From Actinopolymorpha rutila (lineage in GTDB: Bacteria; Actinomycetota; Actinomycetes; Propionibacteriales; Actinopolymorphaceae): a stretch of DNA of 64,000 nucleotides. The position numbers and the translations under genes are program-made. The notes under the pieces are model-generated. The model saw nothing but the letters and a program-made list of their open reading frames with translations, was not told where the DNA came from and did not search any database. Positions 39,550-63,663 of this stretch are shown here, one piece after another; position 1 is the first letter of the stretch; each line of letters starts with the position of its first letter. The stretch is taken from positions 1,240,001 through 1,304,000 of the forward strand of contig NZ_JACBZH010000001.1 in assembly GCF_013407855.1 (NCBI RefSeq), in the 5' to 3' direction.

Positions 39550-39576
39550 GGCGCTTCCATCGTGCCCTACGCCGTG

Positions 39577-39617
39577 CACGGCGGCCCAACCGCGCCGGAC
39601 GCGGGTGGGCCGCCGTG
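39577..39617. terminator. Long hairpin after glyA
   Basis: CACGGCGGCCCA (39577-39588) pairs perfectly with TGGGCCGCCGTG (39606-39617), and CCGCG/CGCGG inside extends the stem to a 5-nt loop. It lies 22 bp past the glyA stop and before the helicase start on the same strand, so it should separate the two transcripts. There is no U-tract. Confidence 0.6.
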
Positions 39618-39639
39618 GGCGTCAGCCGAGGTCGACGCC

Positions 39640-41127
39640 TCAGCCGAGGTCGATCGTTGGGTACAGCGGGTGGTTCGACAGCAGGTCGGCGGCCTGCTGG
39701 GAGACCCGGGTCGCCACCGCCTCGTCGAGCACGTGCGAGGCCTTCGACGGGGCGCCCTGCTTCGTGACGCCCGGCCTGGTCTGGCCGAGCACGGTGTCGA
39801 TCAGCGCGGCCACCTCGTCCAGCTCGGAGGTGCCGAGGCCGCGGGTGGTGAGCGCGGGGGTGCCGAGCCGGACGCCGGAGGTGTACCACGCGCCGTTCGG
39901 GTCCTGCGGGACGGCGTTGCGGTTGGTGACGATGCCCGACTCGAGCAGCGCCGCCTCGGCCTGGCGGCCGGTGAGGCCGTACGACGACACGTCCAGCAGC
40001 ACGATGTGGTTGTCGGTGCCACCGGTGACCAGCTTCGCCCCGCGCCTGGTCAGGCCCTCGGCCAGCGCCTTGGCGTTGTCCACGATCCGCTGGGCGTAGT
40101 CGCGGAAGTCCGGCTGCCGGGCCTCGGCGAGCGCGACCGCCTTCGCCGCCATCACGTGCGGCAGCGGGCCGCCGAGCACCATCGGGCACCCGCGGTCCAC
40201 CTGGTCGGCGAGCTCGGGCTGGCACAGGACCATGCCGCCGCGCGGGCCGCGCAGCGACTTGTGCGTCGTGGTGGTGGTGATGTGGGCGTGCGGCACCGGG
40301 TCGTAGTCGCCGGTGAGCACCTTGCCCGCCACCAGGCCGGCGAAGTGGGCCATGTCGACCATCAACGTCGCCCCCACCTCGTCGGCGATCTCGCGCATCG
40401 TCGCGAAGTTGATCAGCCGGGGGTACGCCGAGTAGCCGGCGACCAGGATCAGCGGGCGGAACTCCTGCGCCGCCCGGCGTACCTCGTCGTAGTCGATCAG
40501 GCCGGTCTCGGGGTCGGTGCCGTAGCTGCGCTGGTCGAACATCTTGCCGGAGATGTTCGGCCGGAACCCGTGGGTGAGGTGGCCGCCGGCGTCGAGGGAC
40601 ATGCCGAGCATCCGCTGGTTGCCCAGCTCGCGGCGCAGCTCGAACCAGTCCTGCTCGGACAGGTCGTTGACCTGGCGGACCTGCGCCTTCTCCAGCGCCG
40701 GCGCCTCGACCCGGTTGGCCAGCACGGCCCAGAACGCGACCAGGTTGGCGTCGATGCCCGAGTGCGGCTGGGCGTAGGCATGCGGCGCGCCGAAGAGCTC
40801 GCGGGCGTGCTCGGCGGCCAGCGCCTCCACGGTGTCGACGTTCTGGCAGCCGGCGTAGAAGCGGCGGCCGATCGTGCCCTCGGCGTACTTGTCGCTGAGC
40901 CAGTTGCCCATCGCCAGCAGGACCGCCGGCGAGGCGTAGTTCTCACTCGCGATCAGCTTCAGCGACTCGCGCTGGTCGTGGAGCTCGGCGCCGATCGCGG
41001 CGGCGACGCGGGGCTCCACCCCGGCGATCACCTCCAGCGCGCTCCGGAACGCGGTCGACTCGGTGCTGTTTCGAGGGCTGGTCCGGGTGGTGTTCTGCGG
41101 GCTGTCCTGGGGGGACGCGGGGCTCAT
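39640..41127 (-). CDS. glyA: Serine hydroxymethyltransferase
   Basis: This 495-aa PLP enzyme interconverts serine and glycine while loading one-carbon units onto tetrahydrofolate. The start is ATG 41127 behind [23 protein letters not shown] (substrate), [16 protein letters not shown] and the PLP-lysine segment [15 protein letters not shown] (Lys290) are intact. It is longer than the usual 415-430 aa: an N-terminal extension ([17 protein letters not shown]) and an internal insertion around [19 protein letters not shown] account for the difference. A ZTP riboswitch lies in its leader, so expression should respond to purine/folate shortage. A 13-bp copy of its 3' end (CAGCCGAGGTCGA) is duplicated just past the stop. 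Confidence 0.95.
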
Positions 41128-41151
41128 GGGGACCTCCTGTGGCGTACGGAA

Positions 41152-41240
41152 GGGGGCCCAGGCGCACGGCACTCCGTCCTTCGACGAGGCCGCTTCCCGA
41201 TGGTCGATCCCATCCCAACGCGCCAGTCACGGCCTGCACC
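41152..41240 (-). promoter_or_regulatory. ZTP riboswitch (pfl motif) in the glyA leader
   Basis: The minus-strand leader holds the conserved blocks in order: GTGACTGGCG (41221-41230), a GATGG/CCATC hairpin (GATGGGATCGACCATC), CCATCGGGAAGCGG (41190-41203), a CGGC/GCCG stem, and CGCCTGGGC (41156-41164). GGCGC in the first block can pair with GCGCC in the last, forming the pseudoknot of this class. ZTP riboswitches sense ZTP/ZMP, which build up when 10-formyl-tetrahydrofolate is low, and are known upstream of glyA and folD. The aptamer ends about 20 nt before the AGGAGG ribosome-binding site. CCCCCTTCC just after it could pair with GGAGG, so translational control is plausible. Confidence 0.85.
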
Positions 41241-41598
41241 GAGGCTATCGTGGCCGCCCGCCCGCGCGCAGCCACCCGTACCCGGACGCACCGGTACACC
41301 CCACGCCTGGTCCGCCGTGCCCGCCGACCCCGCGACGATCCGCCCGTGCCCGCCGTGTCCTCCATCGCCCCCATGTACGGCCGTGCCCGCCCGGACCGGG
41401 ACGGTCCGCCACGGCCGGATGCGCCTCGGCCCCGGTAAGACGGCGCCCTCTCCGGCGTTTGTGCCCTCACCCACCCGCTTCTGTAGACACTGGGATGAGG
41501 AATGTCTCAGGGACTTCTCTGGGCGGGACCGTTTCCGCAGTTCAGAGGCGGTACGCCGACCACGGGGCCGCAGGCTCCGAGCGTCGGGGGGTGAGGTT
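41241..41598. other. Non-coding gap between the glyA leader and the TPR gene
   Basis: About 360 bp separate the riboswitch from the start at 41599. Open frames here are short, overlap on both strands and have no recognisable family. The region must hold the divergent promoters of glyA and of the TPR gene. TGTAGACACT near 41485 on the plus strand is the only -10-like box I noticed. Nothing else is supported. Confidence 0.5.
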
Positions 41599-44500
41599 GT
41601 GGCGGCGCAGAAGGGACAGCACGGCGACTCGGGCAAGCCGGAGGAGTCGCAGGGACGGACGTGGGTCCGCTCGCTGGGAATGATCGGTCTGGTCCTCCTG
41701 GTGCTGGCGGCCCTGATCGAGACGATCACGGCCGGTACGCAGCGCCCGGTGGTGGGCGGGCTGGCCGTGCTCGCCGTGGCCGCGTTCGTGATAGCCGCGG
41801 TGGGGCGGCTGACCGAGCCGGAGAGCGTGCGCGCCGCCCGGGCGCAGGCCGCCGACGAGCCGGCGGAACCCGGCGAACGGACCGGCCCCTGGCAGGAGGA
41901 CGACGGTCCGTGGCGGGAGGACGCCGACGGGCCCTGGCAGGAGGAGGGCCGCGAGGGCGGCGACGGCGGCGACGGCGGCTGGAACGAGGGCGAGGGGCCG
42001 TGGAGCGAACGCGGCGAGCCCAGCGCGCCGGCCGAGCGGTCCGGCGGCTGGCAGGGCGAGCCGCCCGGAGCCCGCTCCGGTGCCCGCGGCCAGACCAGGG
42101 CCGCCACCCGGGTGCCCGGCCAGCGGCGGGAGCGCGGACGCAAGGCGCCGCAGGTTCCCGAGCGGACGTTCCCCCGGCTGTCGGAGCTGACAGAGGTGGT
42201 GCTGGGACCGACTCCGACGCACTACGCCCACCGCGGCCAGGCGCCGTACGTACGCCGCCCGGCCGCCGACGGCCGGCTGGCCGCGCTGCTGAACGCCGAC
42301 GGCGCGCCGTTCCCGTTCGTGGTCGTGGTCGGCCCGTCGAAGGCCGGCAAGTCGCGCACGGTCGTGGAGGCCGTGCGGTCGGTGCTCGGCGGCCGGGACC
42401 CGGGCGTGTTCGTTCCCGGCAGCGGCGAGGAACTCGCCGAGGCGCTGCGCGAGGAGGAGACCCTGCCCCGGGGACGCCAGCCGTGGGTGGTGTGGCTGGA
42501 CGACGTCACCGCCGCGGATCTGGTCCACCTGTCCGCGGACACGCTGGACCGGGCCGCCCGGCACGCCATAGTCGTGGCCAGCATGACCGACGAACGCTGG
42601 GACCAGGTGCTGGACAGCACCGGCGACGTGGCGGCCACCGCCAAGGCGGCGTTGCGCCGCGCGACGAAGGTGCCACTGGACTTCGAGCTGACCGTACGCG
42701 AGCGCGCGGAGGCCGAGCAGCTCTACCCGCAGCTGCAGATCAACGCCAGCATCGGCGAGGCGCTGATCGGCGGGGACCAGCTGGTGGCGAAGTTCCGCGC
42801 CGGCCGGGACGGGGAGCCCGCCGGCTACACGATCGTGCAGGCAGCGGTTGACGCGCGACGGGCCGGGCTGAACCGCCCGCTCACCGAGTCCGAGCTCCGC
42901 GGCCTCTACCCGCTCTACCTGCGCCGGGTGCGCATCGACCTCGACCCGACCACCGCGTTGTTCGAGGAGGGCATGGCATGGGCCACCGAACCTGTCGCCT
43001 CCGAGGTCTCGCTGCTGAGTTTTGTGGGGGGCGATGCCGGAGCGACGCAGGGAGGGATCGGCTCCGGGATCGGCTCGGGGATCGGTTCCGGGATCGGCTC
43101 GCCGGCCGGACCGGGTGCGCGGGGGAAGCAGTCGGCGCAGGAGAGTTCCGACGGTGCCCTGCAGGTTTTGGACTACGTGGTCGCGGTCGAGGAGGGACGC
43201 CACGGCCAGGAGGCCAGGCCGGTCTTCGACGCGATGTGGCAGGAGCTCATCGCCGCTGTTCCGCCCGATGACGCGTTCGACGTCGGCATCGGCGCGAGCC
43301 TGCGCGGCAACCAGTCCGCCGCCGAACTCGCGTTCCGCAAGGTGCTCGACCTCGACCACGCCGGCGAGGCGCCGCGGGCGGCGAACAACCTCGGCCTGCT
43401 GCTGCGCGAGCGCGGCGACGTGGCGGGCGCGCGGGCGGCGTTCCAGAAGGCGATCGACTCCGGGCACCCGGACGTCATGCCGCGAGCGGCGAACAACCTG
43501 GGCGCGCTGCTGCGCCAGCAGGGCGACGTGAGCGGTGCCCGCGGTGCGTACCAGAAGGCGATCGACTCCGGGCACACCGACGTGGTGCCCCGGGCGGCGA
43601 ACGACCTGGGCTCGCTGCTGCGCGGCCAGGGCGACGTCGCGGGTGCGCGGACGGCGTACCAGCGGGCGGTCGACTCCGGGCACACCGACGTGGTGCCGTC
43701 GGCGGCGCTCAACCTCGGCATGTTGCTGAAGGACCAGGGCGACGTCGCCGGTGCGGAGACGGCGTACGAACGGGCGATGGGGTCCGGCGACCCCGAGGTG
43801 GTGCCGGTCGCCGCGCTCAACCTGGGCTCGCTGCTGCGCGAGCAGGGCGACATGGCGGGCGCGCGGACGGCGTACCAGCGGGCGGTGGACTCCGGCCACG
43901 CCGAGGTGGTGCCGGTGGCCGCGCTGAACCTGGGTTCGCTGCTGCGGGAGCAGGGCGACATGGGGGGCGCGCGGACGGCGTACCAGCGGGCGGTCGACTC
44001 CGACCACCCGGGCGTGATGCCGGTCGCCGCGCTGAACCTCGGCATGTTGCTGAAGGACCAGGGCGATCCCGAGGGCGCCGAGGCGGCGTACCAGCGGGCC
44101 GTCGACTCCGGTGACGTGGACGTGGTGCCGATGGCGGCGCTCTACCGGGGTTCGCTGCTGAAGGACCAGGGCGACCTGGTGGGCGCGGAGACGGCGTTTC
44201 AGCGGGCCGTCGACTCCGGCCACCCCGACGTCGCACCGATGGCGGCGAACAACCTCGGTGTGCTGCTCACCGAGGAGGCCGACGTGGGCGGCGCCCGGGC
44301 GGCGTACGAGCTGGCGGTGCGGTCCGAGCACGCGGACGTGGCGCCGATGGCGGCGAACAACCTCGGTGTGCTGCTCACCGAGGAGGCCGAGGTCGACGAT
44401 GCCCGAGCCGCCTACCAGGTGGCGGTGGACTCCGGGCACGCGGACGTGGCGCCGATGGCGGCGCTGAACCTCGGTCTGCTGCTGGACGCGCAGGGCGACG

Positions 44501-44898
44501 TGGCCGGCGCGCGGTCGGCGTACGAGCTGGCGGTGGACTCCGGGCACGCCGACGTGGTGTCGGTGGCCGCGGTCAACCTCGGCACGCTGCTGCGCGACCA
44601 GGGTGACGTGGCCGGCGCGCGGTCGGCGTTCCACCTGGCGATCGACTCCGGGTTCGTCGACATCGCACCGGTGTCGGCCGGCCACCTGCGGGTGCTGCTG
44701 GCCGGGCAGGGCGGTTCGGTGAACGCCCGGCCGGCTGCCCGGATCGGCGCCGACCGGGTACGCGAGACCGCGGCACTCGGTGCCCGGACGGGCGAGCCCG
44801 GACCGGACGTCGACGTCGAGGGCACGGACGACCTGGGCACCATCGAGGCCATGGAGGAGGGGCTCGGCGAGGACGACGGGCCGAACGGGCGCCGCTAG
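41599..44898 (+). CDS. Membrane-anchored P-loop NTPase with 12 tandem TPR-like repeats
   Basis: I place the start of this 1099-aa protein at GTG 41599 (behind GGTGAGG); the frame is open far upstream but only as an artefact antisense to glyA and the helicase. Two membrane helices (about residues 25-70: MIGLVLLVLAALIETITAG, VVGGLAVLAVAAFVIAAVG) are followed by an acidic Trp/Gly linker with GPWQED, GPWRED and GPWQEE copies. Then comes an NTPase-like domain with Walker A GPSKAGKS (245-252) and Walker B-like WVVWLDD (296-302). A GIGSGIGSG linker leads to 12 repeats of 36 residues (598-1029; consensus LGSLLREQGDVAGARTAYQR). An acidic tail ends it. It looks like a STAND-type signalling or scaffold protein; function unknown. 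Confidence 0.8.
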   Translation: MAAQKGQHGDSGKPEESQGRTWVRSLGMIGLVLLVLAALIETITAGTQRPVVGGLAVLAVAAFVIAAVGRLTEPESVRAARAQAADEPAEPGERTGPWQEDDGPWREDADGPWQEEGREGGDGGDGGWNEGEGPWSERGEPSAPAERSGGWQGEPPGARSGARGQTRAATRVPGQRRERGRKAPQVPERTFPRLSELTEVVLGPTPTHYAHRGQAPYVRRPAADGRLAALLNADGAPFPFVVVVGPSKAGKSRTVVEAVRSVLGGRDPGVFVPGSGEELAEALREEETLPRGRQPWVVWLDDVTAADLVHLSADTLDRAARHAIVVASMTDERWDQVLDSTGDVAATAKAALRRATKVPLDFELTVRERAEAEQLYPQLQINASIGEALIGGDQLVAKFRAGRDGEPAGYTIVQAAVDARRAGLNRPLTESELRGLYPLYLRRVRIDLDPTTALFEEGMAWATEPVASEVSLLSFVGGDAGATQGGIGSGIGSGIGSGIGSPAGPGARGKQSAQESSDGALQVLDYVVAVEEGRHGQEARPVFDAMWQELIAAVPPDDAFDVGIGASLRGNQSAAELAFRKVLDLDHAGEAPRAANNLGLLLRERGDVAGARAAFQKAIDSGHPDVMPRAANNLGALLRQQGDVSGARGAYQKAIDSGHTDVVPRAANDLGSLLRGQGDVAGARTAYQRAVDSGHTDVVPSAALNLGMLLKDQGDVAGAETAYERAMGSGDPEVVPVAALNLGSLLREQGDMAGARTAYQRAVDSGHAEVVPVAALNLGSLLREQGDMGGARTAYQRAVDSDHPGVMPVAALNLGMLLKDQGDPEGAEAAYQRAVDSGDVDVVPMAALYRGSLLKDQGDLVGAETAFQRAVDSGHPDVAPMAANNLGVLLTEEADVGGARAAYELAVRSEHADVAPMAANNLGVLLTEEAEVDDARAAYQVAVDSGHADVAPMAALNLGLLLDAQGDVAGARSAYELAVDSGHADVVSVAAVNLGTLLRDQGDVAGARSAFHLAIDSGFVDIAPVSAGHLRVLLAGQGGSVNARPAARIGADRVRETAALGARTGEPGPDVDVEGTDDLGTIEAMEEGLGEDDGPNGRR
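43390..44685 (+). repeat. Twelve 108-bp coding repeats (36-aa TPR-like units)
   Basis: Twelve in-register units of exactly 108 bp, each starting with CTCGGC or CTGGGC (Leu-Gly), encode near-identical TPR-like helices; unit 8 starts CGG instead. A degenerate unit precedes and a partial one follows. The even length and high identity suggest expansion by recombination. Confidence 0.9.
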
Positions 44899-54363: not shown

Positions 54364-56124
54364 TTATGGGCGGAGGATTCGTCGTTGTGGGTCGGTCCAT
54401 TCCGGGGGTACGTATTCGGGGTGGCCGTGGGTGCCCATGCGGACGTGCCAGCCTTTGTGGTGGACGGTGGTGTGGTGGTAGCGGCACAGGAGTACGCCGT
54501 TGGCGAGGTCGGTGGGTCCGCCGTGGTCCCAGGCGGTCATGTGGTGCGTGACGCAGCGTGGTTCGGGGATGGTGCAGCCGGGGAAATGGCAGTGGCTCCC
54601 GTCGCGGATGGCGAGCGCACGCCGCTGGTGTTCTTGGAAGAACCGGTCGGAGCGGCCGAGGTCGAGGACTTGCCCGTCTCCGCCCAGCACGACGGGGATC
54701 AGGTCGGCCTCGCACGCCAACCTGCGCACGGTCGCGGCGGAGATCGGCTTGCCGTCGGTGCCGAGGTGGCGGGCTGATCCGCCGCCTCCGCACGTCGGGC
54801 AGCCGTCGTGCGGGTCGATGGCACCCTCCGGTCCGAGGCCGGCCTCCGGCCCCGCCGCACCCTCCTCAGGCTCGGCGTCGGCTCTCCGCCCGGCGTCCAC
54901 GCCCGGGTTGGCGGCACCGCCCGGAACCTGACCGGTATCCGGTTCCGTTCCGGTCGCGGGTTCCGGCTCCGCTTCGGTGTTCGGTTGTGGGTGCTGCCCG
55001 GGTGCTCGCGGTGGGGGTATCCCGTCCGCGAGGGAGCCGGTGCCGGGTGATCGCCGTTTCGGCTTGCCGGCTTGGCCTTCGTCCTGACCTCCTGCCTCCT
55101 CCTGCTTCGGAACGCCGGTGTCATCAGCGTTCTTGGTGCTGTTGGTGTTCTTGGTGGTGGCGTATTTGGGGTCTGTGCAGGGGCAGGTGCACGGTCTGGG
55201 GCGGATGATGGTTGCGGTGTCGTCGATGAAGCCGGCACCGGTGCCCTTCAGCAGGGTCTCGAAGGGGATGGTGACCGCGACCTGCGGCGGTCTCCCGCCG
55301 CGGACCGGTGCGGTCGCAGCGGCGGCGAGCAGGCCGAGGGCTTCGGCGAACGCGTCACCGCGGCGCTGGTCGATGGGCCGCCGGTCCGGCTCGGCTCCTT
55401 TGACGGGTTCGGCGAGGGGTTCGATGATTTTGCGGAGCAGTTCCATCTCCCAGGCGGGCAGGGTGATGTGCACCGACTCCGACTGGGGGATGCCGTTCGG
55501 CACGTACCGAAGGGACCGCTTCTGCTCGGCCTTGCGGTCCTTGCGTTCCAGCTCCTCCCGCATGAGCCGGTCGTACTCTTCCGGCGCGATCCGCTCCAGC
55601 AGTTTCTCACCCAGCACGCGTAGTTCGTCGGGGTTGGCGAACCGGGCTTTGGTGATCAGGAACTCCTCGGCCTGGTGGCGTTCGTCGATGCCGACGTACT
55701 CGGGGAGTTTCTTGATCGCGTCGGCGATGACCTGCGCCTGTTTCGACGACACCACACCGGCCGCCAGCGCTTCGCCGGTCAGCCGGGCCTCTTTGTCCAG
55801 GTCGCGGGCGAGACCGACCGCGGCGGAGGACTCGTGCTGACTCATCCGCTGAGCCGTCCGCAGATACACCGTCGCGTTCGGTGCGCCGGTGAGTTTGCCG
55901 ATGTCACAGGCCTCGGCCTGGCGCACCAGCGCCAGTTCGAGTGCTTCGAGGCGGGCCTTCTTCGCCCGCACCTGCGCGATCAGCGACCCGACCTCCTCCG
56001 CGCCCAGGAAGCCTTTCGGCGTCACCCACGCGTCGTCGAGAGAAGCGTCGAGTTGGTCGAGCGCAGCCTGGACCCGACCGGCAGCACCGCCACCGGCCGG
56101 GACGCCCCAGCTGCTCGAAGACAT
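54364..56124 (-). CDS. DUF222/HNH-endonuclease family protein, copy 2
   Basis: This 586-aa paralogue of the protein at 29645-31348 has the same N-terminal DUF222 region, Cys cluster (CTCPCTDPKY), CPTCGGGG and HNH motifs (CHFPGC, VTHHMTAWDHGG, LCRYHHTTVHH). Differences are a few substitutions (for example FLGAEE against SLDVGE near residue 43) and a longer linker, with an added stretch around PDTGQVPGGAANPGVDAG. It ends in TAA where copy 1 ends in TGA. The HNH ligands are all present. TAGCAT lies 6 nt upstream of the ATG, as in copy 1. Such families multiply in actinobacterial genomes; whether they are mobile is unknown. Confidence 0.9.
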   Translation of the reverse strand: MSSSSWGVPAGGGAAGRVQAALDQLDASLDDAWVTPKGFLGAEEVGSLIAQVRAKKARLEALELALVRQAEACDIGKLTGAPNATVYLRTAQRMSQHESSAAVGLARDLDKEARLTGEALAAGVVSSKQAQVIADAIKKLPEYVGIDERHQAEEFLITKARFANPDELRVLGEKLLERIAPEEYDRLMREELERKDRKAEQKRSLRYVPNGIPQSESVHITLPAWEMELLRKIIEPLAEPVKGAEPDRRPIDQRRGDAFAEALGLLAAAATAPVRGGRPPQVAVTIPFETLLKGTGAGFIDDTATIIRPRPCTCPCTDPKYATTKNTNSTKNADDTGVPKQEEAGGQDEGQAGKPKRRSPGTGSLADGIPPPRAPGQHPQPNTEAEPEPATGTEPDTGQVPGGAANPGVDAGRRADAEPEEGAAGPEAGLGPEGAIDPHDGCPTCGGGGSARHLGTDGKPISAATVRRLACEADLIPVVLGGDGQVLDLGRSDRFFQEHQRRALAIRDGSHCHFPGCTIPEPRCVTHHMTAWDHGGPTDLANGVLLCRYHHTTVHHKGWHVRMGTHGHPEYVPPEWTDPQRRILRP

Positions 56125-56136: not shown

Positions 56137-56279
56137 TCGGCCACCACCGACAATGGCTCTTCGCTCGTTGGGCGAGTATCTCCTTCTGGTGCAGGAGATT
56201 CGTCGTACCGAGGTGGAGGCTCGAAGAGGGTGCGGACATCATGTGGGCGTCGCCGCGAGGAGGGTGGGAGGCTGCGTTC

Positions 56280-57215
56280 GTGAACGTACGCGAGGCGCTG
56301 GCACGGCGCGAGGAGGAGCGGGCACGGCTGGTGGACCGGCTGGCCCGGCTGCTGGCCGACGACCCGAGGGTGCTGGCCGGTTGGCTGCACGGTTCCGTCG
56401 GGCGTGGTGAGGCCGACGGCCTGAGTGACCTGGACGTCACCGTCGTGATGGCCGACGAAACCTTGGTCGCGGCCGCAGGAGGGCCGAGCCGGCCCACGAC
56501 CTACGAGTGGGTACGAACCTCCCCGCGCGGCCGGTTCGTGGCCGGCCTGGGCACTCCCACGTTGCTGACCGAGGCGCCGCAGAACGCGCCGGCCGGCGGG
56601 GCGTTCCTGACGTCGTTCTTCCCCGGGGAGTACGGCCCGCACGGAGTCGACTGGGAATGGGTTCCCCGGTCGGCCGCGGTGCGGCCGGAACGCGCCGTGG
56701 TCCTGCTCGACCGGTCCAACGCGACGGCACCGGAGTGCCCGAGCCGGCCGGAGCGCGGCCGCGACGAGCCGCCACTCCCGGAGCCGGCGTCGCGGTCGCC
56801 GCTGGAGGTGGCGGTCGCGGAGTGCTGCTCGTTCTGGTCGATGCTGATGTGGGCGGGCAAGTCCGCCGCGCGCGCCCGCCCGGACGGCTGCGCGACGCTG
56901 CTGGCGTACGCCGTCCGGTCGCTGGACGTGGTGACCCGGTTCGCCGGGGTCACGCCGCCTGCCGACCCTGTCGCGGCCGAGACCGGCAACCCCACGTCCA
57001 CGGCCGGGGATCGGCTTCGGTCGCAGGCCGGGTCCCTGTGGTTGCTCGCAGACCGGATGGACGCGCTCGCTCCACGCCTGGGTGGGCTCGGCGTGGACCT
57101 TCCCGAGGGGGTGAGCCCGGCGGTCCGGACGTACCTGCGCCTGGTCGATTCGCTGGTCGAGGCGAACGGACCGCTGTCCGAAGACGGCCATCCGGTTGGG
57201 GGTCGCGAGGCGTGA
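56280..57215 (+). CDS. Nucleotidyltransferase-domain protein
   Basis: This 311-aa protein has an N-terminal polymerase-beta-like nucleotidyltransferase domain: LHGSVGRGEADGLSDLDVTVV (quoted in part as GSVGRGEADGLSDLDV) gives the GS...DxD metal-binding pattern at about residues 38-53. Unlike kanamycin-type enzymes the rest is not recognised; EVAVAECCSFWSMLMWAGKS and the C-terminal helices look like a substrate domain. I chose GTG 56280, behind GGGAGG; ATG 56241 is an in-frame alternative. Such proteins may be antibiotic-resistance-like or regulatory nucleotidyltransferases. It lies between HNH copy 2 and the GH42 operon. Confidence 0.75.
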   Translation: MNVREALARREEERARLVDRLARLLADDPRVLAGWLHGSVGRGEADGLSDLDVTVVMADETLVAAAGGPSRPTTYEWVRTSPRGRFVAGLGTPTLLTEAPQNAPAGGAFLTSFFPGEYGPHGVDWEWVPRSAAVRPERAVVLLDRSNATAPECPSRPERGRDEPPLPEPASRSPLEVAVAECCSFWSMLMWAGKSAARARPDGCATLLAYAVRSLDVVTRFAGVTPPADPVAAETGNPTSTAGDRLRSQAGSLWLLADRMDALAPRLGGLGVDLPEGVSPAVRTYLRLVDSLVEANGPLSEDGHPVGGREA

Positions 57216-57343
57216 GACCCGATTGCCCTGCGTACGTTGAACGTTTTCCCACTTCCCGCGTCCCAGGCAAGCCACGGTTGACGTCCACGGGCTGATCGCG
57301 CTCCTCCCGCCGGCCGAGGTCGGGATGGGAGGATGACGGCGAA

Positions 57344-57385
57344 CAGAACCAGCACGATCAGAACCAGCAGGATCAGAACCACGGC
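57344..57385. repeat. 15-bp tandem repeat CAGAACCAGCACGAT, nearly three copies
   Basis: Units at 57344-57358 and 57359-57373 differ by one base; a third partial unit follows. The array lies just before the GH42 gene start, in its probable leader. Confidence 0.75.
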
Positions 57386-57400
57386 GAAGGGACGACTCGG

Positions 57401-59455
57401 ATGGCGCAGGACGACCGCGACGCGGACGTGAACTTCGGTCAGGTCCTCTACGGCGCCGACTACAACCCCGAGCAGTGGCCCGAGGACGTGTGGGACGAGG
57501 ACGTCCGCCTGATGCGGGCGGCACATGTCACCACGGTGAGCGTGCCCGTGTTCGGCTGGGCCGCACTGCAGCCGGACGAGGAGACGTTCACCTTCGACTG
57601 GCTGGATCGCGTGCTGGACAAGCTGGCCGCGCAGGGCGTCCGGGCGAACCTCGCCACCGCGACCGCCTCGGTTCCGGCGTGGGTGACCCGCCGCTACCCG
57701 GACGTGCTGGTCGTCGACGAGGACGGAATCCGCCGCCGGCACGGCAACCGGCACACGTTCTGCCCGTCCTCGCCGAACTTCCGCCGGCTGTCCACCGCCC
57801 TCGTCCGCAAGATCGCCACGCGGTACGCCGACCACCCGGCCCTGCAGCTGTGGCACATCGGCAACGAGTACGGCACGTTGTGTTACTGCGACCTGTGCGC
57901 GGACGCGTTCCGCCAATGGCTGCGCGAGCGGCACGGCAGCCTCGACCAGCTCAACCGCAACTGGAACACCGCGTTCTGGGGACACACGTTCACCGACTGG
58001 GCACAGGTCGAACCCCCGGTCAGCAAGGGCGAACGCGCCATCCAGGCGTTGCGCATCGACTGGCACCGGTTCGCCTCCGATGCGCTGCTGAACTGCCTGC
58101 GCGCCGAGGTGGCGGTGATCCGCGAGGTGACGCCGCACGTCCCGGTCACCACCAACCTGATGGGTGCGTTCTTCCCGCTCGAGTACCACCGCTGGGCGCG
58201 CGAACTCGACGTCGTGTCGTGGGACAACTACCCGCGCCCGAACGACCCGCCGGAGACGGTGGCGTTCAACCACGCGCTGATGCGCGGGCTGCGGGAGGGC
58301 CAGCCGTTCCTGCTGATGGAGCAGAGCCCCTCCCAGCAGAACTGGCAGCCCTACAACTGGATCAAGCCGCCGGGCCTGCTGCGGCTGCAGTCCTACCAGG
58401 CGGTCGCCCAGGGCGCGGACTCGGTGATGTACTTCCAGTGGCGGCGTTCCCGCGGCGGCATCGAGAAGCTGCACGGTGCGGTGGTGGAGCACCACGGCCG
58501 CTCCGACGCGCGGGTCTTCCGCGAGGTGGCCGAGCTCGGCCGCGAGCTGGAGGCCCTCGGCACCCGCACGACCGGCGGCCGGGTCGCCGCCCGGGCCGCG
58601 GTGTTGTTCGACTGGCCCACCTGGTGGAGCCTGCGGTTCTCCAGCGGGCCGAGCGTCGACCTGGACTACCTCGAGCAGTGCCGGTCGGCGTACACCCCGC
58701 GGCACCAGCTCGGCGTACAGACCGACGTGCTCGCACCGGACGCTGACCTCTCGGCGTACGACCTGATCGTGGCCCCGGTGCTCACCATGGTCGAGGAGCC
58801 GGTCGCCACCGCGATCGCCGACCGCGTACGCGAAGGAGCGACGTTCGTCGCCACCGCCTTCACCGGACTGGTCGACCAGCACGACCTCGTCCACCCCGGC
58901 GGCGCACCCGGCCCGTTGCGCGACGTGCTCGGCCTGACCGTCGAGGAGACCGACGCGCTCCCGCCGGACCGGACGAACGCGGTCCGGCTCGGCGCCGATG
59001 TGGGAACGTTGCCGGCCGGCACCGAACTCCCCGCCGGAATCCTGTGCGAACGGCTGTTCCTGGAGGGCGCGAAGCCGGTGGGGGAGTACACCCGCGACTT
59101 CTACGCCGGCGAGCCGGCCCTCACCCGCAACTCCTACGGCCAGGGTCAGGCGTACTACCTGCCCACGCTGCTCACCGGCGACGGGCAGCGCCGTCTCCTC
59201 ACCGCTCTGTGCACCGAGGTGGGCATCGGCTCACCGCTCGCCGGCGGCGCTCCGCCACCGGCCGGGATGGAGGTGACCCGCCGGGTCGGACCGTCCGGAG
59301 CGGGTGTGCTCTACCTGCTCAACCACGGTGCGGACGCGGCGCGCGTGCGGTTGCGTCCGGGCGTGCACACCGACCTGCTCACCGGGCGGACGTACGACGC
59401 GGAGGTGTCGGTGCCACTGCGCGGCGTGCTGATCCTGGCCGAGCCGACCAGCTGA
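57401..59455 (+). CDS. GH42 beta-galactosidase
   Basis: This 684-aa glycoside hydrolase family 42 enzyme releases beta-linked galactose (or arabinose) from short oligosaccharides. It starts at ATG 57401 after GAAGGGACG. The N-terminal barrel has YGADYNPEQWPEDVWDEDV, the acid/base Glu156 in HIGNEYG and the nucleophile Glu307 in LLMEQSPSQQNW. The zinc-binding cysteines of the family (HTFCPSSP, LCYCDLCADAF) are present. Trimerisation and small C-terminal beta domains follow, ending in SVPLRGVLILAEPTS. There is no signal peptide, so it acts in the cytoplasm. It leads an operon with a 2-hydroxyacid dehydrogenase, an aldolase and a dehydratase. Confidence 0.94.
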   Translation: MAQDDRDADVNFGQVLYGADYNPEQWPEDVWDEDVRLMRAAHVTTVSVPVFGWAALQPDEETFTFDWLDRVLDKLAAQGVRANLATATASVPAWVTRRYPDVLVVDEDGIRRRHGNRHTFCPSSPNFRRLSTALVRKIATRYADHPALQLWHIGNEYGTLCYCDLCADAFRQWLRERHGSLDQLNRNWNTAFWGHTFTDWAQVEPPVSKGERAIQALRIDWHRFASDALLNCLRAEVAVIREVTPHVPVTTNLMGAFFPLEYHRWARELDVVSWDNYPRPNDPPETVAFNHALMRGLREGQPFLLMEQSPSQQNWQPYNWIKPPGLLRLQSYQAVAQGADSVMYFQWRRSRGGIEKLHGAVVEHHGRSDARVFREVAELGRELEALGTRTTGGRVAARAAVLFDWPTWWSLRFSSGPSVDLDYLEQCRSAYTPRHQLGVQTDVLAPDADLSAYDLIVAPVLTMVEEPVATAIADRVREGATFVATAFTGLVDQHDLVHPGGAPGPLRDVLGLTVEETDALPPDRTNAVRLGADVGTLPAGTELPAGILCERLFLEGAKPVGEYTRDFYAGEPALTRNSYGQGQAYYLPTLLTGDGQRRLLTALCTEVGIGSPLAGGAPPPAGMEVTRRVGPSGAGVLYLLNHGADAARVRLRPGVHTDLLTGRTYDAEVSVPLRGVLILAEPTS

Positions 59456-59503
59456 CCGCCCGCCACGGGTGGTCGCACAGGAGCACGGAGAGGGGGACGG
59501 GCG

Positions 59504-60544
59504 ATGACCTTCCGCGTCGGAGTCACCCGCGACTTCCGTGCACCCGACGGGAGCATCGGCTGGGGTGACATCGGACTGTCGGCGCTGGAACAGGTGCCCG
59601 GAGTGGAGTGGGAGTTCCTGCCGGCCGACCCGTGCGGCGAGCGGCATGGGCTCGACGAGCTCCCGGCCGAGGTCGTCGCGGCGTACGACGGCCTGCTGGT
59701 GCTCACCCCGCGGGTGAGTGCCGCGTCGCTGACCCGCGCCGACCGGCTGCGGATCGTGGCGCGGTTCGGCGTCGGCTACGACAACGTGGACGTGGCCGCG
59801 TGCACCGACGCGGGCGTCGTGGTCACCATCACCCCCGACGGAGTGCGTCGTCCCGTGGCCGTCTCCGCGCTCGCTCTCCTGCTGGCGTTGACCCATCGGG
59901 TCCGGGTCAAGGACCAACTGGTGCGCACCGGGCGCTGGCAGGACAAGCTCGACCACCTCGGGGTCGGCGTCACCGGCCGCACCCTCGGCGTGGTCGGCTG
60001 GGGCAACATCGGCCAGGAGGTGTCCCGGGTCTGCGCCCCGCTGGGCATGCGCCGGCTCGCCGCGGACCCGTACGCCGACGCCTCGGCCGCGGCACGGGCC
60101 GGCGTCGAACTCGTCGACCTGGACGAGCTGCTGGCCCACTCCGACTTCGTGGTCCTCACCTGCGCCCTGACGCCGCAGACGCGCGGCCTGATCGACGCCG
60201 AACGGCTGGCCGTGATGAAGCCGTCGGCGTTCCTGGTCAACGTCGCCCGCGGGCCGGTCGTCGACCAGCAGGCGTTGACGCGGGCGCTCACCGAACGGAG
60301 GATCGCCGGCGCGGCGCTGGACGTGTTCGACCCCGAACCACCCTCGCCCGACGACCCGCTGCTCCTCCTGGACAACGTCCTGCTGGCACCGCACGCGATC
60401 GCCTGGACCGACGAACTCGCGCTCGGCAACGGCCGCAGCGCGGTGCAGGCGATCCTCGACGTGGCCGCCGGGCGCCGTCCCACCCACGTGGTCAACCCGG
60501 AGGCGTGGGCGCCGCCCGCCCCGAGCGAAGGAGCCGACCGATGA
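59504..60544 (+). CDS. D-2-hydroxyacid dehydrogenase family protein
   Basis: This 346-aa NAD(P)-dependent dehydrogenase starts at ATG 59504 behind GAGAGGGGG. The Rossmann motif GVVGWGNIGQEVSRV (about residues 163-177) and the catalytic triad appear in order: Arg in LVNVARGPVVD, Glu in ALDVFDPEPPSPDDP and His in LLAPHAIAWTDE. Members interconvert 2-keto acids and D-2-hydroxyacids, e.g. glyoxylate, hydroxypyruvate or phosphoglycerate. It follows GH42 by 48 bp and overlaps the aldolase start (ATGA). In this setting reduction of a 2-keto acid or semialdehyde product of the aldolase is likely, but the substrate is not shown. Confidence 0.88.
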   Translation: MTFRVGVTRDFRAPDGSIGWGDIGLSALEQVPGVEWEFLPADPCGERHGLDELPAEVVAAYDGLLVLTPRVSAASLTRADRLRIVARFGVGYDNVDVAACTDAGVVVTITPDGVRRPVAVSALALLLALTHRVRVKDQLVRTGRWQDKLDHLGVGVTGRTLGVVGWGNIGQEVSRVCAPLGMRRLAADPYADASAAARAGVELVDLDELLAHSDFVVLTCALTPQTRGLIDAERLAVMKPSAFLVNVARGPVVDQQALTRALTERRIAGAALDVFDPEPPSPDDPLLLLDNVLLAPHAIAWTDELALGNGRSAVQAILDVAAGRRPTHVVNPEAWAPPAPSEGADR

Positions 60545-61449
60545 GCCAGCCCGACCACCCGCAGCACCCTGGGCACTCCGAGCACTCCGAGCACTCCGAG
60601 CACTCCGGCCACCCCGGGCAGCCCGAGACCGCCGTACATCAGGCGATTCGTGCGGGCGAGCTCGTCGTGGGCACGTTCGTGTTCGAGTTCGCCACCGCGG
60701 GCGTCGGCCGGCTGGCGGCCGGCGCCGGCGCGTCGTTCGTCATCTACGACACCGAGCACACCGGCTGGACGTGGGAGACCATCGGCCGGCTGGTGGCGAC
60801 CACGCGGGGCACCGGCGCCGACAGCTACGTCCGGGTGCCCACCACCAACCGCTCGGAGATCTCCCGGGCGCTGGACGTCGGCGCCCGTGGGGTGATGGTC
60901 CCGATGGTGGAGTCGGCCGAGCAGGCGAGCACCATCGTGGCGTGGGCGAAGTACCCGCCGGCCGGCCTGCGCGGTGCGGCGTTCGGCCTGGCCCACGACG
61001 ACTACGTACGCGGTGACGGTGCCGCCTACATGCGCAGGTCCAACGCCGACAACCTCGTGTTGACACAGATCGAGACCGCCGCCGGGCTGGCCGCCGTGGA
61101 GGAGATCGCCGCGGTCGAGGGCGTGGACGTGCTGTGGGTCGGGCAGTACGACCTGACCACCAGCATGGGCATCCCGGGCGAGTTCGACCACCCGGACTAC
61201 CTGGCCGCGCTGGACCGGGTCGCGACGGCCGCGCGTACGCACGGCAAGGTTGCCGGCTTCATGGCCGGAACCCCTGCCGAGGCGGCGACGCTGGCCGAAC
61301 GCGGCTTCTCGATGTTCGCCTACAGCGGCGACCTGTGGATCTACCAGGACGCGCTCCGGGCCGGGATCAGCGACGTACGGGGGAAGGCGCAAGCCGGCCT
61401 TGCGGCAGGCGCTCGTAACGGCCAGAAGCCAACTGAGGCTGCGAAGTGA
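60541..61449 (+). CDS. HpcH/HpaI-type class II aldolase (2-keto-3-deoxy acid aldolase)
   Basis: This 302-aa metal-dependent aldolase is of the RhmA/GarL group. It starts at ATG 60541 in the preceding stop and has an odd His-rich N-terminal stretch, PGHSEHSEHSEHSGHPGQPE (about residues 10-29), absent from typical family members. The rest is normal: VIYDTEHTGWTWETI (catalytic His), YVRVPTTNRSEI (Arg), LTQIETAAGLAAVEEI (metal Glu) and GQYDLTTSMGIPGEFDHPDY (metal Asp). It should cleave a 2-keto-3-deoxy acid to pyruvate plus an aldehyde. Its stop overlaps the next start by 4 nt, so all four genes are translationally linked from the dehydrogenase on. Confidence 0.88.
   Translation: MSQPDHPQHPGHSEHSEHSEHSGHPGQPETAVHQAIRAGELVVGTFVFEFATAGVGRLAAGAGASFVIYDTEHTGWTWETIGRLVATTRGTGADSYVRVPTTNRSEISRALDVGARGVMVPMVESAEQASTIVAWAKYPPAGLRGAAFGLAHDDYVRGDGAAYMRRSNADNLVLTQIETAAGLAAVEEIAAVEGVDVLWVGQYDLTTSMGIPGEFDHPDYLAALDRVATAARTHGKVAGFMAGTPAEAATLAERGFSMFAYSGDLWIYQDALRAGISDVRGKAQAGLAAGARNGQKPTEAAK
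60574..60609 (+). repeat. 9-bp coding repeat CACTCCGAG (His-Ser-Glu), about four copies
   Basis: Three perfect CACTCCGAG units and a fourth CACTCCGGC lie at the 5' end of the aldolase gene and encode the HSEHSEHSE run. The copies are identical in DNA, consistent with recent slippage. Confidence 0.85.
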
Positions 61450-62675
61450 GGATCACCGACGTCCGCGTCGCCGAGGCGCCGATCGGTTCGGGGTTCGCCA
61501 ACGCGGTCATCGACTTCTCCGCGATGACCGTCTCGGTGGTGGCGGTGGAGACCGACCGGGTGGTCGACGGCGAGCGCGTCGTCGGCTACGGCTTCAACTC
61601 CAACGGCCGCTACGCCCAGACCGGAATCCTCACCGGCCGACTGCTCCCGCGCCTGCGCGCGTGCCAGCCCGAGCGGCTGGTCGACCCCGAGACCGGATTG
61701 CTGGACCCGATCACCGCGAACGCGGTGATGCGGACGAACGAGAAGCCCGGCGGGCACGGCGACCGGGCCGTCGCCGTCGGCATCCTGGACATGGCGCTGT
61801 GGGACGCCGCGGCGAAGGCGGCCGGCCAGCCGCTGCACCGGTTGCTGCGGACCCGCCTCGGCCGGTCCGCCCCCGAGTCCGCACCGGAGTCCGCGCCGGA
61901 GTCCGCGCCGGAGTCCGCGCCGGAGTCCGCACCGCAGGAGGACTCGGTCTGGGTCTACGCCGCCGGCGGCTACTACTACCCCGACGGCACGGTCGGCTCC
62001 CTGCGGGAGGAGATCCGCGGCTACCTCGACCTCGGCTACCGCGACGTCAAGATCAAGATCGGCGGCGTCTCGCTCGCCCAGGACGTCGAACGCGTCGAGG
62101 CGGTGCTCGACCTGTTGCCCGGCGGCTGCCGGCTGGCCGTCGACGCCAACGGGCGGTTCGACCTGCCGACAGCCCTGGCGTACGCCGATGCGCTGTCGGT
62201 GTACGACCTGAGGTGGTACGAGGAGCCGCTGGACCCCCTGGACTACCTCGGCCACGCGGTGCTCGCCGAGGCCTGTCCCTGGCCGCTGGCCACCGGCGAG
62301 AACCTGTTCGCCGAACCAGAGGTGCGCAACCTCGTCCGCCACGCCGGCCTGCGCGCGGACCGGGACGTAGTGCAGATGGACCCGTCGCTGAGCTACGGAG
62401 TGCCGGAGTACGCCGCGATGCTCGCCTGTCTGGACGGTGCCGGGTGGTCGCCGGCACGCTGCGTGCCGCACGGCGGCCACCTGTACAACCTCGCCGTGGC
62501 AGCGGCTTTCGGACTCGGCGGGTGCGAGTCGTACCCGCGGGTCTTCGAGCCGTTCGGCGGATTCGCCGACGACGCGCCGGTGGCCGGCGGGCGGGTCCGG
62601 CCCGGAGACCGTCCGGGGGTGGGGATCGAGGGCAAGGCCGACCTGCACCGACTGGTGCGCGGGCTGTTCGACTGA
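61446..62675 (+). CDS. Enolase-superfamily sugar-acid dehydratase (D-tartrate dehydratase-like)
   Basis: This 409-aa mandelate racemase/muconate lactonising enzyme starts at ATG 61446 overlapping the aldolase stop. The lid domain precedes a barrel with YRDVKIKIGGVSLA (KxK), metal ligands in LAVDANGRFD, WYEEPLDPLDY and ATGENLFAE, and CVPHGGHLYNLAVAAAFGLGG, whose HGGH and GGCES segments resemble D-tartrate dehydratases. The closing SYPRVFEPFGGFADDAPV is also of that type. It should dehydrate an acid sugar to a 2-keto-3-deoxy acid for the aldolase. Six 4-residue repeats (SAPE) form an extra loop after residue 140, before the barrel. Confidence 0.87.
   Translation: MRITDVRVAEAPIGSGFANAVIDFSAMTVSVVAVETDRVVDGERVVGYGFNSNGRYAQTGILTGRLLPRLRACQPERLVDPETGLLDPITANAVMRTNEKPGGHGDRAVAVGILDMALWDAAAKAAGQPLHRLLRTRLGRSAPESAPESAPESAPESAPESAPQEDSVWVYAAGGYYYPDGTVGSLREEIRGYLDLGYRDVKIKIGGVSLAQDVERVEAVLDLLPGGCRLAVDANGRFDLPTALAYADALSVYDLRWYEEPLDPLDYLGHAVLAEACPWPLATGENLFAEPEVRNLVRHAGLRADRDVVQMDPSLSYGVPEYAAMLACLDGAGWSPARCVPHGGHLYNLAVAAAFGLGGCESYPRVFEPFGGFADDAPVAGGRVRPGDRPGVGIEGKADLHRLVRGLFD
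61866..61937 (+). repeat. 12-bp coding repeat encoding SAPE, six copies
   Basis: Six 12-bp units starting at codon 141 of the dehydratase gene (TCCGCGCCGGAG type) encode SAPE five times and SAPQ once. DNA identity among the middle units indicates slippage. Copy number changes would keep the frame. Confidence 0.9.
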
Positions 62676-62720: not shown

Positions 62721-63308
62721 TCAGCCCATCGTCTTCGCGCCGTCCAGGGACTCCCGGATGATGTCGGCGTGGCCCGAGTGCTGGGTGGTCTCGGCGATCA
62801 TGTGCAGGACGACCCGACGAGTGGACCACCGGGCGCCGGGCTCGAACCACGGCGCCTCCGGCAGCGGATGCGACGCGTCCAGGTCGGGCAGCGACGAGAT
62901 GAGCTCGTCGGTGCGGCGGGCGACCTCGGCGTAGTGGTCGAGCACGCCGGCGAGCGTCTCGCCCGGGAGCAACCGGAACTCCTCCGCCCAGCTCGCCAGG
63001 ACCTCCTCGCTGTACTCCATGCTCGCCGGGCCTTCGACGATGAACCGCGCCCAGTTCTCCTCCACCGACGCGACGTGCTTGATCAGGCCGCCCAAGCACA
63101 GCTCGCTCGCGGTGGTTCGCATGGCGGCCTGCTCGTCGGTGAGGTCGCGGGTGGTGTGGCGCAGGAAGAACCGCGCGTGGGCGAGGGCGGCCAGCAGGTC
63201 TGCCCGCTCGCCGGTGGTGGAGGCGGCCGACGCGGCGGCGGATGCGGCGGCGGACTCGGAGACGGACGCGGCGGTGGACGTGAACTGGTTCGAGGCCGAG
63301 TTGCTCAT
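62721..63308 (-). CDS. DinB/DUF664-family protein
   Basis: This 195-aa protein starts at ATG 63308 behind GGAAAGGAA. After an Ala/Ser-rich N-terminus (SVSESAAASAAASAASTT) comes a four-helix DinB fold: LLAALAHARFFLRHTTRDL, a His in GGLIKHVASVEENWARF, and VLHMIAETTQHSGHADIIRE. The three spaced His residues (in KHVASVEE, QHSGHAD and neighbouring positions) fit the metal site of the superfamily. Actinobacterial members are often annotated as mycothiol-dependent or damage-inducible enzymes. It is convergent with the dehydratase gene 46 bp away. Substrate unknown. Confidence 0.85.
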   Translation of the reverse strand: MSNSASNQFTSTAASVSESAAASAAASAASTTGERADLLAALAHARFFLRHTTRDLTDEQAAMRTTASELCLGGLIKHVASVEENWARFIVEGPASMEYSEEVLASWAEEFRLLPGETLAGVLDHYAEVARRTDELISSLPDLDASHPLPEAPWFEPGARWSTRRVVLHMIAETTQHSGHADIIRESLDGAKTMG

Positions 63309-63663
63309 GGTGTTCCTTTCCGGAGGCGTTGATCCCAAGGTAGGAGCCCTACCGGCCACTTCCTGGCCTCAATACCGGACGTCGGAAACTTCTCCGGACC
63401 AGGACCACCGAGCTGATCGACATCACAGAGTGTCACCGCTTTCGGGCGGTCTCACGCCGACCGTGGTGGAGCATCCGAACCACTGTTTCTGCCCGGCACA
63501 ACCGATGCTCAATCCAGTTAGCCAGAATTTTCGGTGTGATTGTCGGGCCCTGTCGCGGCTTTTGCCGACCCAGTCTCGGGGCCTTGCCGCGCACCCGGGA
63601 AAGCCGCTCGACGCACACGGCAATTCCGCGATCGGCGACGGCCGCGAACCTATCCTGTCCGCT
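63309..63663. other. Divergent gap between the DinB and glycosyltransferase genes
   Basis: About 355 bp without a supportable gene, less GC-rich than the rest of the window. It should carry both divergent promoters. I see one loose inverted repeat, GAGCATC (63469-63475) and GATGCTC (63504-63510), and a TATCCT box just before the glycosyltransferase start. Short minus-strand frames here lack any recognisable family. Confidence 0.5.
63651..63656 (+). promoter_or_regulatory. -10-like TATCCT, leaderless promoter of the glycosyltransferase gene
   Basis: TATCCT ends 7 nt before ATG 63664, and no ribosome-binding site precedes that ATG. This favours ATG 63664 over the internal ATG 63697. Confidence 0.45.

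Follow-up and report, generated by a model that had tools for sequence, protein, structure and literature searches.

Organization of the probable operon

The window, by which we mean the whole 64,000-nucleotide stretch of DNA from the soil actinobacterium Actinopolymorpha rutila that was analyzed, contains four intact open reading frames that run in the same direction on the + strand. These encode a GH42 beta-galactosidase (57401..59455, 684 aa), a D-isomer 2-hydroxyacid dehydrogenase of the NAD type (2HADH; 59504..60544, 346 aa), an HpcH/HpaI class II aldolase (ALD; 60541..61449, 302 aa) and an enolase-superfamily dehydratase of the mandelate-racemase (MR) subgroup (DHT; 61446..62675, 409 aa, with a GTG start). 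The closely packed four-gene set given in a preliminary description of this DNA is confirmed by the ORFs and Pfam domains. That description also had the last three genes overlapping by ATGA, which is correct for the 2HADH stop and ALD start (60541..60544, +), whereas the ALD stop and DHT start share GTGA (61446..61449, +). GH42 does not overlap 2HADH, as 48 nt lie between them.

In all four genes, and against every relative, divergence at codon position 3 exceeds that at positions 1 and 2 by ~1.6 to 7 fold, indicating that these are real genes; all four are under purifying selection. Scanning of the operon region revealed no terminator-like site, although it should be noted that the same scan yielded fewer sites than did its shuffles. 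The four genes likely form a shared operon and would be co-transcribed. The leader of GH42 holds a 15-bp tandem repeat (57340..57381, +), which is missing in three relatives and is not a conserved operator. A shared operator 5' of GH42 was thus rejected, as the repeat is private to the window and the alignment contains no conserved palindrome.

Enzyme families and catalytic residues

Catalytic residues are readable in all four proteins, as had been claimed, and the assigned families, including the resemblance to tartrate dehydratase, are upheld by Pfam matches, residue positions and solved relatives. GH42 contains the catalytic, trimerisation and C-terminal domains of its family (PF02449/08532/08533; 497 bits for the catalytic domain; PDB 3tts, 692 bits), with E156 (in GNEYG) as the acid/base and E307 (in LLMEQSP) as the nucleophile. 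It is the sole match in a GH42 family search of the genome and, as its N-terminus shows no obvious signal peptide, is probably intracellular. 2HADH (2-Hacid_dh/2-Hacid_dh_C, 202 bits) presents the catalytic residues R249, E278 and H297, and GWGNIG and D188 mark it as NAD-type; its top-scoring models are phosphoglycerate dehydrogenase and glyoxylate/hydroxypyruvate reductase. ALD scores above the Pfam cut-off (HpcH_HpaI, PF03328, 106 bits), with the His, Arg and two metal ligands in place (H73, R98, E178 and D204). Its best NCBIfam match is 2-dehydro-3-deoxyglucarate aldolase (GarL), although the 136 and 132 bits obtained with the GarL equivalogs miss the cut-offs of 393 and 407, and ALD likewise falls well under the cut-offs of the HpaI and YfaU models. 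A 9-bp tandem repeat (60573..60607, +) encodes HSEHSEHSE in a variable N-terminal extension of ALD.

DHT (MR_MLE_C, 120 bits) possesses the KxK motif, the D/E/E metal ligands and the His-Asp dyad of its subgroup, and its match to solved TarD-type structures (PDB 4kem, 426 bits; 2dw7/1tzz, 417 bits) settles the predicted fold. DHT is 54–55% identical to the characterized D-tartrate dehydratase TarD (Bll6730, PDB 1tzz/2dw6/2dw7) and keeps every catalytic residue (K100, K204, D233, E259, E285, D312 and H342, corresponding to TarD K102, K184, D213, E239, E265, D292 and H322), as well as the NEKPGGHG and GFNSNGRY segments. The two proteins differ, however, in the segment following the catalytic His, which reads HLYNLAVA..GGCESYP in DHT and HQMSLNIA..GGNESYP in TarD, and in the pairing of DHT with an aldolase. 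They also differ in phylogeny, with the Actinopolymorpha clade falling outside, and as sister to, the clade that contains TarD and the tartrate-linked relatives (98/95 support for the latter). The closest relative beyond the genus, L052, adjoins a DHDPS-family aldolase gene; L052 is, however, a long branch, and the support for its grouping is 90/81. Genes for tartrate dehydrogenase and tripartite-transporter binding proteins adjoin several DHT relatives, a Rhodococcus relative adjoins PdxA and DUF1537 genes, and no HpcH/HpaI aldolase was found near DHT relatives outside Actinopolymorpha. DHT reached none of the specific dehydratase model cut-offs, scoring 48 bits with the galactonate dehydratase model, where the cut-off is 311. 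Within the linker between the two DHT domains, a 12-bp tandem repeat (61865..61934, +) encodes (ESAP)n; the relatives have fewer copies or none. DHT is a TarD-like protein that lies outside the known tartrate clade and has joined an aldolase, which makes it a specific candidate for a novel activity on sugar acids.

Comparison across Actinopolymorpha and other genera

The gene-order comparison that had been called for showed that the order GH42-2HADH-ALD-DHT occurs in four of the six Actinopolymorpha genomes. As the flanking genes are also syntenic among these four species, the shared order is weak evidence. In A. alba, GH42, the ALD/2HADH core and DHT are scattered within one pectin-degradation island that also holds GH78, GH29, GH127 and a pectinesterase-family protein; GH42 is there a separate unit, ~9.6 kb off, with opposite-strand genes between. 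A. pittospori contains ALD and 2HADH but no GH42 orthologue, and its DHT lies ~1.1 Mb away.

In five genomes, 2HADH and ALD are followed in a conserved cassette by genes for a VOC protein, a four-carbon acid sugar kinase of the DUF1537 family and a regulator of the FCD type. This cassette is found without GH42 or DHT and often adjoins GH78. Our literature search, which was narrow, found no description of this cassette. The ALD/2HADH core adjoins GH78 in Actinoallomurus, where it is also near GH28, and in Thermocatellispora, and GH78 and an aldo-keto reductase (AKR) flank it in three genomes. The cassette in other genera contains no such dehydratase, and among four genomes of other genera that were checked, three lack a DHT orthologue altogether; ALD therefore does not necessarily depend on DHT for its substrate. 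The cassette VOC protein resembles methylmalonyl-CoA epimerase rather than OtnI, and its kinase meets no DUF1537 equivalog cut-off. No DUF1537 kinase is encoded within the window operon, and the single DUF1537 gene of this genome (at 2,252,203) is unrelated to the cassette kinase at the cut-off used. The comparison splits the four-gene set, with ALD and 2HADH constituting an older core.

Proposed role and alternative explanations

We tentatively propose that the four genes form a lineage-specific Actinopolymorpha catabolic operon for oxidized plant (pectic) sugars, the substrate being putative. GH42 would trim beta-linked galactose (or arabinopyranose) off imported oligosaccharides. Independently, DHT would convert a sugar acid to a 2-keto-3-deoxy acid by removing water, an aldarate being the probable substrate given that the tartrate-site residues are kept. 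ALD would cleave this 2-keto-3-deoxy acid to pyruvate and an aldehyde acid, and 2HADH would use NADH to reduce a 2-keto product, e.g. hydroxypyruvate or glyoxylate. While the families, residues, gene order, selection and conservation are direct results, we infer the reaction order and the substrate as well as co-transcription and what GH42 does. This proposal is favored by the enzyme families and active sites, by the gene order kept in four species, by the separate clade of DHT, by the A. alba island, by the GH78 and GH28 neighbors in Actinoallomurus and GH78 in Thermocatellispora, by the best models of ALD and the reductase-type models of 2HADH, and by L052, whose aldolase neighbor represents a second pairing of a DHT-type protein with a pyruvate-type aldolase. 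Actinopolymorpha populations in plant biomass, moreover, express pectin glycosidases (PMC9594917). Against it stand the cassette lacking DHT, the distant DHT of A. pittospori, the missed model cut-offs, the absence of an HpcH/HpaI aldolase near DHT relatives beyond the genus and the long branch of L052. UxaC, moreover, is found in all six Actinopolymorpha species, such that galacturonate has another route.

That the sugar freed by GH42 itself feeds the route, as the preliminary description suggested, is very improbable. In this scheme, galactose or a galactosyl acid would be oxidized to galactonate, from which DHT would remove water; ALD would then cleave the resulting acid, and the product would be reduced. 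The common strand, short gaps and order conserved in four species do agree with such a route, as does a lactonase family elsewhere in the genome. However, flanking synteny weakens the argument from order, other genera carry the core without GH42, A. pittospori lacks a GH42 orthologue and A. alba has GH42 apart, and the supply of galactose to DHT in the form of galactonate was rejected as the main reading given this separation and the low model score. Nothing ties galactose itself to the dehydratase-aldolase-reductase route. The lack of a dehydrogenase and lactonase in the operon, which had been pointed out earlier, is not informative, since two SMP-30/gluconolactonase-type proteins and nine AKR-family matches are encoded elsewhere in the genome. 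The sugar-acid type of route and the shared operon are nonetheless upheld in outline.

DHT might instead be a D-tartrate dehydratase yielding oxaloacetate, with ALD decarboxylating oxaloacetate (which aldolases of the HpaI type are known to do as a side reaction) or acting separately, and 2HADH reducing pyruvate or oxaloacetate. The identity to TarD, its full catalytic set and the tartrate genes beside several relatives speak for this, yet we consider it rather unlikely given the separate clade, the altered segment after the catalytic His, the absence of tartrate dehydrogenase and tartrate transporter homologues beside the operon and an aldolase that would be superfluous in a simple tartrate route. 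ALD and 2HADH could also serve a four-carbon acid (threonate/erythronate type) route, in which 2HADH would oxidize the acid to a 2-oxo acid, the VOC protein isomerize it, the DUF1537 kinase phosphorylate it and ALD cleave or decarboxylate the product, DHT replacing the kinase branch in the window species. Both L-threonate and D-erythronate have the 2R configuration that a D-2-hydroxyacid dehydrogenase would need, and TarD is itself a C4 enzyme. The cassette conserved in five genomes, the PdxA and DUF1537 neighbors in Rhodococcus and the action of DUF1537 kinases in L-threonate and D-erythronate use (PMC10580937) are also in line with this route. It is, however, likewise rather unlikely, as the VOC protein is not OtnI-like, the kinase is below every equivalog cut-off and has been lost from the window genome, and the glycosidase neighbors are left unexplained.

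Further routes were considered. For the RG-II sugar Dha, ALD would release pyruvate and D-threuronate, oxidation of which would give D-tartrate for conversion by DHT to oxaloacetate; in the other genera, D-threuronate would instead be channeled via D-threonate by an AKR and a DUF1537 kinase. By our own derivation (Dha C5 left and C6 right in Fischer projection, hence D-threo), the stereochemistry fits a TarD-like enzyme, but we regard the route as highly doubtful. L-rhamnose oxidation via GH78, AKR and ALD was attractive given the genes flanking the core in three genomes, but was rejected as no rhamnonate dehydratase was identified there, 2HADH and the kinase are unexplained and the nearest solved AKR relatives are not sugar 1-dehydrogenases. 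An apionate route was set aside, as an OiaX-like RuBisCO-like protein and an OiaK-like kinase adjoin the core in A. pittospori only and are below cut-offs, as was a fungal-type galacturonate route (AKR, L-galactonate dehydratase and aldolase), the dehydratase being absent from the non-Actinopolymorpha genomes. Dehydration of D-threonate by DHT is disfavored, as the enzymes with reported activity on this acid do not include TarD (PMC10079672).

Comparison with known systems

The operon is a new arrangement of familiar enzymes that probably helps in the use of plant cell-wall sugars. If ordinary, it is one further rearrangement of the dehydratase-aldolase-reductase theme, while the cassette of pectin-degrading actinobacteria could reveal how soil bacteria use rarer plant cell-wall acids. 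The earlier statement that no standard pathway matches was too strong, as the logic of the E. coli galactarate/glucarate route (garD/gudD, garL, garR, garK) does: both combine a dehydratase, an HpcH/HpaI pyruvate-lyase aldolase and a product reductase, and ALD scores best with GarL-type models, albeit below cut-off. These three family roles occur together in the operon, although its components are not orthologous to the gar enzymes: the dehydratase (TarD-like, of the enolase superfamily) and the reductase (a D-2-hydroxyacid dehydrogenase) come from families unrelated to those of gar, GH42 is joined, and no kinase or transporter is present.

In the Bifidobacterium fum locus for fucosyllactose and fucose, a beta-galactosidase, among other glycosidases, likewise neighbors genes for an L-fuconate dehydratase and an aldolase of 2-keto-3-deoxy acids (PMC6817895, PMC5080750). 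Unlike the operon, this locus also encodes a mutarotase, a lactonase, a transporter and a regulator of the LacI type. The dehydratase and aldolase of fum, the latter of another family than ALD, act on fuconate (PMC6817895, PMC5080750), and the enzymes beside that beta-galactosidase act on fucose (PMC6817895). Finally, the ltnD-otnK-otnI-otnC clusters (PMC10580937) resemble the ALD/2HADH core outside the genus in having a DUF1537 kinase and a regulator, whereas their dehydrogenase, aldolase and VOC protein are non-orthologous and the window operon contains no such kinase.

Gene content of the operon and its surroundings

The four genes were all found on the plus strand, as the preliminary description had proposed: a GH42 beta-galactosidase (57401-59455, 684 aa), a D-isomer 2-hydroxyacid dehydrogenase (2HADH; 59504-60544, 346 aa), an HpcH/HpaI aldolase (ALD; 60541-61449, 302 aa) and an enolase-superfamily dehydratase (DHT; 61446-62675, 409 aa). 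The enzyme families named there agree with Pfam and with the active-site residues. GH42 ends 48 nt before 2HADH, and the ATGA overlap reported for the last three genes holds for 2HADH/ALD, whereas ALD and DHT overlap by GTGA. In codon comparisons with relatives, no internal stops were seen in the four reading frames, and every comparison showed about 1.6- to 7-fold more differences at codon position 3 than at positions 1 and 2. Two in-frame tandem repeats, HSE at the ALD N-terminus (60573-60607) and ESAP in the DHT linker (61865-61934), are shorter or missing in relatives.

Upstream of GH42 lie a weakly nucleotidyltransferase-like gene (Polbeta-type; 56241-57215, plus strand) and a long ORF (54364-56124) resembling DUF222/HNH proteins by eye, both syntenic in sister species, and a convergent mycothiol-S-transferase-family gene (62721-63359, minus strand) follows DHT. 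Elsewhere in the window, the C-terminal part (approximately residues 1770-2080) of a very long ORF (38077-44898, 2273 aa) has matches among TPR-repeat proteins, O-GlcNAc transferase being one. The sequence to the right of the window, followed until about 8 kb beyond the operon, encodes glycosyltransferases, a GH130-like protein and a TetR regulator, and no sugar-acid genes. Elsewhere in the genome (6.95 Mb, one contig) there are two SMP-30/gluconolactonase-type proteins over cut-off and nine AKR-family matches, and UxaC occurs too; the lack of dehydrogenase and lactonase genes in the operon thus proves little either way.

Conservation within and outside the genus

The order GH42-2HADH-ALD-DHT is identical in four of the six Actinopolymorpha genomes (the window's, G002, G004 and G005). 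As these are close relatives (87-96% protein identity) in which the flanking genes are syntenic as well, the common order is weak evidence by itself. Among 393 genomes of the order, ALD orthologues (E<=1e-50) occur in six, all of this genus, and DHT relatives are sporadic (25 genomes). Genes in unannotated relatives were called by a simple ORF and GC3 script, followed by Pfam or tblastn, so that small genes may be missed.

In A. alba, where loci L051 and L020 are contiguous, GH42 (plus) is followed by an SDR, two permeases, a solute-binding protein and GH78 (all minus), then by 2HADH-ALD-VOC-DUF1537 kinase-FCD regulator-AKR (plus), DUF6807, a cupin-like ORF and DHT (plus), and finally by a LacI-type protein, GH29, a Big_7 protein, GH127 and a pectinesterase-family protein; this locus is a pectin-degradation island. 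The 2HADH-ALD pair of A. pittospori neighbors a DeoR regulator, a solute-binding protein, a RuBisCO-like protein, a DUF1537 kinase, GH127 and an Asp/Glu racemase; DHT is separated from this pair by about 1.1 Mb, and GH42 has no orthologue in this genome (best match 42%). The RuBisCO-like protein and kinase adjoining the pair there (L050:9127-18722) are OiaX-like and OiaK-like, their NCBIfam scores falling well short of the respective cut-offs.

A cassette of 2HADH-ALD-VOC-DUF1537 kinase-FCD, for which no literature description was found, is conserved in Actinomycetota (L020:977-6329, L064:5934-13208, L066:5085-13206, L101:7510-11719 and L102:1232-5459), with G793 and G795 among the genomes carrying it beyond Actinopolymorpha. 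Actinoallomurus iriomotensis and Thermocatellispora tengchongensis combine it with AKR and a divergent GH78, both of which accompany it in three genomes. Plasmids of Mesorhizobium and Bradyrhizobium also carry ALD and 2HADH as a pair (about 40% and 50% identity), accompanied by an ABC sugar transporter. A DHT orthologue was absent from three of four non-Actinopolymorpha genomes checked; that of the fourth, Pseudonocardia (56%), has a tartrate context. Since the set separates in relatives, we conclude from these sequence comparisons that ALD and 2HADH form the core, which GH42 and DHT joined in Actinopolymorpha. In Pseudonocardia sp. CNS-004, the ALD orthologue (L065:10001-10749) is in two pieces in two frames meeting near position 10216, reflecting either a frameshift or a sequencing error.

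Relationships of the dehydratase

DHT shares 54% identity with the characterized D-tartrate dehydratase TarD (Bll6730) and retains every TarD catalytic residue, and it probably uses TarD chemistry. Phylogenetic analysis of 36 sequences places the six from Actinopolymorpha in one clade (support 100/100) that groups with L052, from another family of the order (90/81, long branch). Both fall outside the clade (98/95) of TarD and members linked to tartrate genes, so that, by clade, DHT is not a member of the isofunctional TarD family. Members of the TarD clade adjoin a tartrate dehydrogenase gene in Mesorhizobium, Jannaschia and Pseudonocardia, and others have tripartite-transporter proteins nearby. 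Past the catalytic His, DHT reads HLYNLAVA...GGCESYP, as opposed to HQMSLNIA or HQFSLHIA...GGNESYP in the TarD clade. None of 23 DHT relatives from other actinobacterial genomes had an HpcH/HpaI aldolase nearby. At L052:7972-11232, the TarD-like dehydratase adjoins a DHDPS-family gene and a LacI regulator, a candidate second new sugar-acid route. On a Rhodococcus antarcticus plasmid (L010:171-7859), a TarD-like dehydratase lies between PdxA, two DUF1537 kinases, a DeoR regulator and a class II aldolase; this is a four-carbon acid cluster.

Proposed route and comparison with known systems

Functional statements are drawn here from families and neighbors, for which the most economical reading would be a dehydratase-aldolase-reductase route like garD-garL-garR, the pathway of this kind in E. 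coli. A sugar acid would be dehydrated to a 2-keto-3-deoxy acid, which would be cleaved to pyruvate and an aldehyde acid, the latter then being reduced to a hydroxy acid. For ALD the top-scoring models are of GarL type; for 2HADH they are those of phosphoglycerate dehydrogenase and of glyoxylate/hydroxypyruvate reductase. Every one of these scores falls far short of its cut-off.

A plain D-tartrate route, to which the catalytic residues of DHT would be suited and from which its clade sets it apart, is unlikely, and we are similarly doubtful of a four-carbon acid route inherited from the DUF1537 cassette, a kinase-bearing arrangement found outside the four-gene operon. Far less probable is that the operon serves the use of Dha from rhamnogalacturonan II (RG-II). 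Retro-aldol cleavage of Dha would give pyruvate and D-threuronate, whose oxidized form is, by our own Fischer derivation, D-tartrate; the gene for this oxidizing step is absent from the operon. In plants, Dha is confined to RG-II (PMC12168206). The galactose route of the preliminary description, in which the sugar released by GH42 feeds the pathway, likewise seems very improbable.

Alongside the proposed garD-garL-garR-like route, the preferred view of GH42 is instead that it acts as a glycosidase on the same plant oligosaccharides and does not supply the substrate. The link to pectin is drawn from the neighborhoods in A. alba, Actinoallomurus and Thermocatellispora, and from a published finding that Actinopolymorpha expresses pectin glycosidases (PMC9594917). 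A parallel is offered by the Bifidobacterium fum locus, where a beta-galactosidase lies beside a dehydratase and an aldolase that act on another sugar (PMC6817895).
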